38,669 nucleotides of DNA, from positions 1-38,669 of the forward strand of contig JAGGTD010000056.1 in the NCBI GenBank assembly GCA_021163925.1, written 5' to 3'. Shown here piece after piece: positions 4,162 through 6,336 of the stretch. The DNA comes from Nitrososphaerota archaeon (GTDB lineage Archaea; Thermoproteota; Nitrososphaeria_A; Caldarchaeales; Wolframiiraptoraceae). Each line of letters starts with the position of its first letter. Within the stretch, counting starts at the first letter, position 1. Under the pieces are notes generated by a model. That model made no database searches. It saw only the letters and a program-made list of their open reading frames with translations, and was not told where the DNA came from. The position numbers were made by a program, and so were the translations under genes.

Positions 4162-6336
4162 ATGAAGGTTAGGGAGCTGAGGTTGAGGGTCGCTGAAGCA
4201 CGGCAAAGAGACGTCGGATATGGTATAGCGAGGATAGATAGAGAGGTTGGAGCGTCAGCCGGATTCCAGACCGGAGACATGGTCGAGATAAGGGGTAGGA
4301 AGATAGCGGCCGCAACCCTCTGGCTAGGATACCTCGAAGATGAGAAGGATGTGATCAGGATAGACGGATATATCAGGAGCAACGCAGGAGTCTCGCTAAA
4401 CGATTGGGTGACGGTTAGGAAGGCGAACGTGAGGGAGGCTCAACTAGTCGTATTGGCGCCGGTGAGCTCCTCGATAAGACCTGATGAGAACTTCACGAGG
4501 CTCGTTAAGAGCAGGTTGATAGAGTATCCGCTCGTCCAGAAGAACATAGTCCCAGTCCTATTCTTCGGAAACCTATTCACCTTCGCCGTCATCCAGACAA
4601 GGCCATCCGGGATAGTTAAGATAACCCCGAAGACAAAGCTCGTCATCCACAGCAAGGTTGTCCAAGAGAGGGCGTTTAGGACGAGTGTAACCTACGAGGA
4701 TATTGGAGGACTGCAAGAGCAGATCCAGAGGATAAGGGAGATGATAGAACTCCCACTAAGATATCCAGAGCTATTCCAGAAGCTTGGAATAGATCCGCCG
4801 AAAGGCGTCTTGCTCTATGGCCCGCCTGGATGCGGTAAGACCTTGTTGGCTAAGGCGGTCGCGACCGAGGCTGAGGCGAACTTCATCCTGATAAATGGCC
4901 CTGAGATCATGAACAAGTATTATGGCGAGACCGAGGCGAGGCTTAGAGAGATCTTTAGGAAGGCGGAGGAGGAAGCTCCATCGATAATATTCATCGACGA
5001 ACTCGACGCCATCGCTCCTAAGAGAAGCGAGGTGACGGGAGAGGTTGAGAAGAGGGTTGTGGCCCAATTACTGGCCCTAATGGATGGCCTCGAGTCAAGG
5101 GGTCAAGTAATAGTTATCGGCGCGACGAATAGGCCGAACGCCCTCGACCCTCGAGGCCATCCATTAGGGCCAGTAATTGGGCCACAACAGATAGGGATAC
5201 CCGACAGGAATGGGAGGAAGGAAATCCTCCAAATACATACTAGGGGCATGCCCTTAGCGGAGGACGTTGACCTCGATAAGCTCGCCGAGATAACTAGAGG
5301 ATATACTGGAGCGGATCTAGCAGCGCTATGCAGGGAGGCGGCGATGAAGGCGATTAGGAGAATTCTGCCGAACATAGACTTCAGCGAGGAGAAGATCCCA
5401 CCCGAGATCTTGGATAATCTAGTCGTGGTCATGAAGGACTTCATGAACGCCTTCAAGGAGATAACGCCGACAGCTCTAAGAGAGGTTGAGATAGAGGTTC
5501 CAAACGTTAGGTGGGAGGATGTTGGAGGGCTTGAAGATGTTAAGCGGAGGCTTATAGAGGCGGTTGAATGGCCCCTAAAGTATCCCGAGAAGTTTGAGAG
5601 GCTTGGAATCAAGCCTCCTAAGGGCATATTATTATACGGCCCGCCTGGATGCGGTAAGACCCTGCTCGCGAGGGCGATAGCGACTGAGAGTGAGGCGAAC
5701 TTCATCTCGGTAAAGGGGCCTGAGATATTCAATAAGTGGGTCGGCGAATCCGAGAAGGCGATAAGGGAGATATTCAGGAAGGCTAGGCAAGCATCCCCAT
5801 GCATAGTCTTCTTCGATGAAGTCGAGTCGATAATATCGAGGAAGGATATGATTGACGACTCATCCGGAGTCGCGAACAGGGTTGCAAGCCAATTCCTAGC
5901 CGAGATAGATGGGATAGAGGAGCTCTCAGATGTCATGGTTATCGGCGCGACGAATAGGCCCGACCTAATGGATCCAGCCGCCCTAAGACCTGGAAGATTT
6001 GATAGGCTGATCTACGTCCCACCGCCGGATGAGAGGGGGAGATATGAGATCTTGAAGATCTATACGAGGAAGATGCCCCTATCACCCGATGTATCCTTGA
6101 AGGAGCTTGCCTCCAGAACCGAGGGATATTCGGGAGCGGATCTAGCGGCTCTCTGCAGGGAGGCGGCCATGAACGCTCTTAGGAGGAGTCTCGACGCGGA
6201 GTATGTCTCGAAGATCGACTTCGAGGAGGCTTTGAAGATCGTTAAGCCCAGCATCTCCCCGCAGATGATTAAGGAGTATGAGAGGGTTGGGGAGCTATTG
6301 AGATATCATGAGAGGCAGCTGACCATGATAGGTTGA
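4162..6336 (+). CDS. Cdc48/VAT-type AAA+ ATPase (N-D1-D2)
   Basis: Two Walker A motifs ([30 protein letters not shown]) and two Walker B. D2 retains [10 protein letters not shown]1 has [13 protein letters not shown] where [13 protein letters not shown]-type sequence is expected. Confidence 0.95.
5056..5188. repeat. Exact 39-bp inverted repeat (arms 5056-5094 and 5150-5188, 55-bp spacer) inside cdc48
   Basis: gttgtggcccaattactggccctaatggatggcctcgag versus ctcgaggccatccattagggccagtaattgggccacaac. Confidence 0.98.

Follow-up and report, generated by a model that had tools for sequence, protein, structure and literature searches.

The cdc48/VAT gene of a heat-loving Nitrososphaerota archaeon contains, as assembled, an exact inverted copy of a stretch of its own coding sequence at the place where the first AAA+ domain (D1) of the encoded unfoldase normally carries its arginine fingers. 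We propose that this copy was left by a polymerase that switched template and returned, probably outside the cell, and that the resulting chimera became the consensus sequence. The window analysed here is the whole stretch of 38,669 nt (GenBank assembly GCA_021163925.1, contig JAGGTD010000056.1, positions 1–38,669 of the forward strand), and it comes from a fragmented draft MAG of the Caldarchaeales (Aigarchaeota) lineage, with 78 contigs and a completeness of 80.9%. The reference sister is a species of the same genus (MAG isolate AUK008, loci L035/L006), with 97% amino acid and 87% nucleotide identity. The features discussed are the following:

4162–6336, + strand: cdc48/VAT gene for an N-D1-D2 AAA+ unfoldase of 724 amino acids, with the reading frame open throughout
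5056–5094, + strand: donor arm, encoding 13 conserved and unchanged D1 residues; 32 of 39 nt as in the sister, the differences all synonymous
5095–5149, + strand: spacer of 55 nt with a normal sequence, encoding 18 residues and ending on the base that opens the next codon; 89% nucleotide identity to the sister
5150–5188, + strand: inverted copy of 5056–5094, 13 codons standing for 13 codons; 23% nucleotide identity to the sister
5056–5188, no strand assigned: hairpin-forming unit of 133 nt, with a perfect stem of 39 bp and a loop of 55 nt

Positions 5150–5188 are the reverse complement of 5056–5094 at all 39 bases, as the first-pass annotation of this DNA had claimed, and the number of such pairs expected by chance in the window at its base composition is about 1e-15. 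The copy lies in frame and brings no net change in length, with relatives aligning 13 codons to 13 codons, so that the earlier description of an equal-length, frame-preserving replacement of 13 residues is upheld. The sister also has C at base 5150, which confines the altered stretch strictly to 5151–5188, and G336 is unchanged by coincidence, leaving 12 of the 13 residues different from those of the sister. The microhomology between junction and template amounts to 1 nt on the left and 0 nt on the right. When the segment 5050–5195 is folded as RNA, it reaches -98 kcal/mol, as against -44.3 kcal/mol (sd 3.9) for shuffled sequences.

By all tested features except the D1 fingers, the product of the gene is a Cdc48/VAT protein. 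It scores 1040 bits against TIGR01243, the CDC48 family model (cut-off 803), it matches CDC48_N, CDC48_2 and two AAA stretches in Pfam, and its closest solved structures are those of a VCP-like ATPase (5g4f/5g4g). The Walker A (GPPGCGKT) and Walker B (IIFIDE) motifs of D1 are intact and can be aligned with those of relatives, and alignment likewise supports the claim that the finger motif of D2, ALRPGRFDR, has been kept. Residues R359 and R362 of p97 are the D1 arginine fingers, and proteins with either R359A or R362A form no hexamers in the apo state (PMC10914628). The positions equivalent to these two residues read P337 and G340 in the protein as assembled, and both D1 fingers are therefore missing from it, as had been suggested. 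A second Cdc48-type gene of the same genome (contig C55, locus L132, approximately 4141–5269), which is truncated by the contig end inside D2, has a normal D1 finger segment of the type RR.GRFD(R/K)E. Structure predictions of D1 with and without the patch gave a mean pLDDT of 47 and 52, respectively, both from shallow alignments; they are uninformative and play no part in the argument.

Comparison with relatives, which the first-pass annotation had proposed as a check, indicates what stood at this site before. The sister carries the ancestral 13-residue finger segment, and RR.GRFD(R/K)E is present in each of the 69 D1 domains amenable to strict parsing among 80 related loci; a finger-less D1 segment occurs neither in the sister nor in any of these domains, and the earlier word "overwritten" is thus apt. 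With the patch set aside, the window gene shares 88% of its nucleotides with that of the sister; within the patch the figure falls to 23%, the chance level. Outside the patch, 231 codons differ synonymously from the sister and only 13 differ by mild, mostly conservative amino acid changes, on which grounds the rest of the gene is under strong purifying selection, and we see no signs of decay elsewhere in it. The patch itself holds 12 radical amino acid changes in 13 codons, and when 25 amino acid changes were placed at random 20,000 times, none of the placements put 12 of them within 13 codons. The inverted copy matches the donor arm of its own genome at 39 of 39 positions and that of the sister at 32 of 39; because it repeats the private synonymous differences of its own arm, the event must postdate the split of the two species and took place either in this lineage or in the DNA of the sample. 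The same perfect match to the gene's own arm led us to reject contamination, or the paralogue, as a donor.

Whether the copy belongs to a wider pattern was judged by counting exact inverted repeats of at least 17 nt within 3 kb in sampled stretches that together come to about 2.1 Mb (718 kb from the window's own genome, 460 kb from that of the sister, about 347 kb from four further members of the family, and the other related loci that were fetched). Across the roughly 2.1 Mb, no other exact inverted repeat within 3 kb exceeds 22 nt, a length reached by the next longest at an unrelated locus (L092), and the remainder of the 718 kb from the window's own genome holds none longer than 19 nt. The lesion is therefore a singleton, which points neither to a library rich in chimeras nor to a genome-wide switching process. 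Coding palindromes of nematomorph mitochondria (PMC6649704) were considered as a parallel; they are numerous per genome, unlike the single case here.

Recent two-copy tandem duplications of 30–160 bp are frequent in both species of the genus; they number 7 in the 718 kb of this genome and 6 in the 460 kb of the sister, and there are none in the approximately 347 kb from the four other family members. Two lie in the window. One, of 89 bp (1203–1381; copies 97% identical, with one substitution and one indel), falls in a parallel beta-helix-type reading frame on the - strand and breaks it, so that the gene appears as two reading frames, 1361–2101 and 47–1189. The other, of 60 bp (6603–6722; 98% identical), is a single copy in the sister and keeps apart the 3' ends of two convergent genes, the one that follows cdc48 and a FEN1-like one (6681–7715, - strand), both frames being intact. 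Elsewhere in this genome such duplications occur at L122 (4522–4742), L123 (7148–7208), L154 (13057–13142 and 17242–17565) and L160 (1945–2172), and in the sister at L173, L174, L176 and L179. The two in the window at first seemed to form a cluster of assembly errors in a contig of poor quality, an interpretation that we dropped since the sister has a similar rate.

The first-pass annotation had left the choice between a genuine template-switch mutation and an amplification or assembly chimera. The anatomy of a template switch is borne out, in that an exact inverted copy of the gene's own arm is bounded by two junctions and followed by a return to the original sequence; on whether the switch took place in a cell or in a tube, our own judgement leans towards the tube. 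The polymerase would have come off its template at 5149/5150, run backwards for 39 nt along the complementary or the nascent strand, from 5094 to 5056, and rejoined the original template at 5189. The switch would have occurred during amplification or preparation of the library and not in the cell, the chimeric sequence would then have been taken as the consensus of a fragmented metagenome assembly, and the true D1 of the species would possess the usual 13-residue finger segment. That the switch was a double one, and that it happened in vitro, we infer with somewhat better than even confidence.

What favours an artefact is above all that an invariant catalytic element has been destroyed in a gene otherwise under strong purifying selection, and the inability of p97 R359A and R362A to form apo hexamers makes it unlikely that a functional allele of this kind became fixed. 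The mRNA would moreover be predicted to bear a perfect stem of 39 bp, and the assembly, with its 78 contigs, 80.9% completeness and a paralogue cut by a contig end, lends further support. Library preparation is documented to yield inverted chimeras (PMC10908179), PCR to yield reads with single and double template switches (PMC5218489), and metagenome assemblies to contain consensus stretches without read support (PMC7111523). Several observations count against it. End-repair chimeras from library preparation normally switch once and then stop, whereas this copy returns in register, leaving both length and frame unaltered. A mis-join in the assembly graph requires shared sequence, and with junctions of 1 and 0 nt we must suppose instead that there were molecules containing both junctions; the near absence of junction homology means that the chimeric reads, too, must have held both. 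Finally, this is the sole such lesion in the 718 kb sampled of its own genome, and nothing thus suggests that inverted chimeras abound in the library, although an isolated artefact may be compatible with the absence of others.

The chief rival, to which we give perhaps one chance in three, is that a short-range template-switch mutation took place in vivo, in the lineage or in the sampled population, and produced a D1 that lacks trans-acting arginine fingers, with function carried by D2 and the paralogue or with an allele that is deleterious and transient. The out-and-back geometry is the classical four-point pattern known from genomes (PMC7954356) and from yeast coding genes (PMC8604942), frame and exact length are preserved, the paralogue of the same genome has an intact D1 finger segment, archaeal family-B polymerases (Deep Vent, Pfu, KOD) are those most prone to switching in vitro (PMC5218489), and the local 30–160 bp tandem duplications common in the genus show that these lineages do make self-copying errors. 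Against this stand the loss of an invariant catalytic element from a gene with no decay elsewhere and a copy of 39 nt, unusual beside great ape events, where the median copy is 12 nt and only 5.5% leave the length unchanged (PMC7954356). Instability and a burden on translation are also to be expected of a perfect inverted repeat of 39 bp.

That the repeat arose from homogenisation of an older imperfect one (quasi-palindrome correction), or from a computational mis-join at a repeated k-mer, is very unlikely, even if both are known routes to perfect inverted repeats or local errors (PMC8604942, PMC7111523). In the sister the segment that was replaced is no closer to the reverse complement of the donor arm than chance would make it (10 of 39 positions), and as no earlier repeat existed to be corrected we reject that route; a mis-join would have had next to no shared bases to act on at either junction and is disfavoured. 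The possibility that the feature was selected, as a D1 deliberately without fingers (a receiver-only subunit) or as an RNA hairpin regulating the gene, we regard as negligible: the frame is kept, the Walker motifs of D1 and D2 itself are intact, the hairpin is strong and the intact paralogue could supply fingers in trans, but the feature is present in no relative, and the arms are identical through copying and not through pairing maintained over time. It would likewise be most improbable for this to be a real functional allele whose D1 can bind ATP but gives no fingers, so that in mixed rings the intact paralogue would activate it in trans as a receiver-only subunit.

Either of the two leading readings has consequences. 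If the segment is an artefact, as we favour, it serves as a warning that an in-frame, full-length public protein scoring far above its family cut-off may hold a false 13-residue active-site segment, one revealed only by a local check for inverted repeats. Should it be real, it would be a clean case in which one template switch rewrote an archaeal catalytic motif, and whether a Cdc48 ring can work without the trans-acting arginine fingers of D1 could then be tested directly.

No new kind of system is required to account for these observations. As an event, the copy falls among short-range template-switch mutations and their in-vitro counterparts. The protein resembles Cdc48/p97/VAT (e.g. the VCP-like ATPase 5g4f) in length, N-D1-D2 architecture, Walker motifs and D2 fingers, and differs by its replaced D1 arginine-finger segment. 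Short-range template-switch mutations of the four-point kind (PMC7954356, PMC8604942) likewise consist of a reverse-complement copy of a neighbouring sequence and a return to the template in one event, and here too the segment matches the reverse complement of a neighbouring stretch of its own molecule exactly (39/39) and the relatives, the sister (L035/L006) and all others, are in the unswitched ancestral state. The event in the window is longer than the great ape median (39 against 12 nt) and belongs with the 5.5% of ape events that show no net change in length; it also affects a coding gene of an archaeon, where it strikes a catalytic motif that is otherwise invariant, and it may not have arisen in vivo. 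Structure-induced template-switch reads from PCR (PMC5218489) also gain inverted segments through single or double strand switches, but these are loop inversions between pre-existing inverted repeats, whereas the window had no prior repeat. The inverted chimeras of libraries described by the PDSM model (PMC10908179) likewise repeat a nearby sequence perfectly and in inverted orientation inside a read, yet they form soft-clipped read ends, while the window sequence returns in register on the far side.
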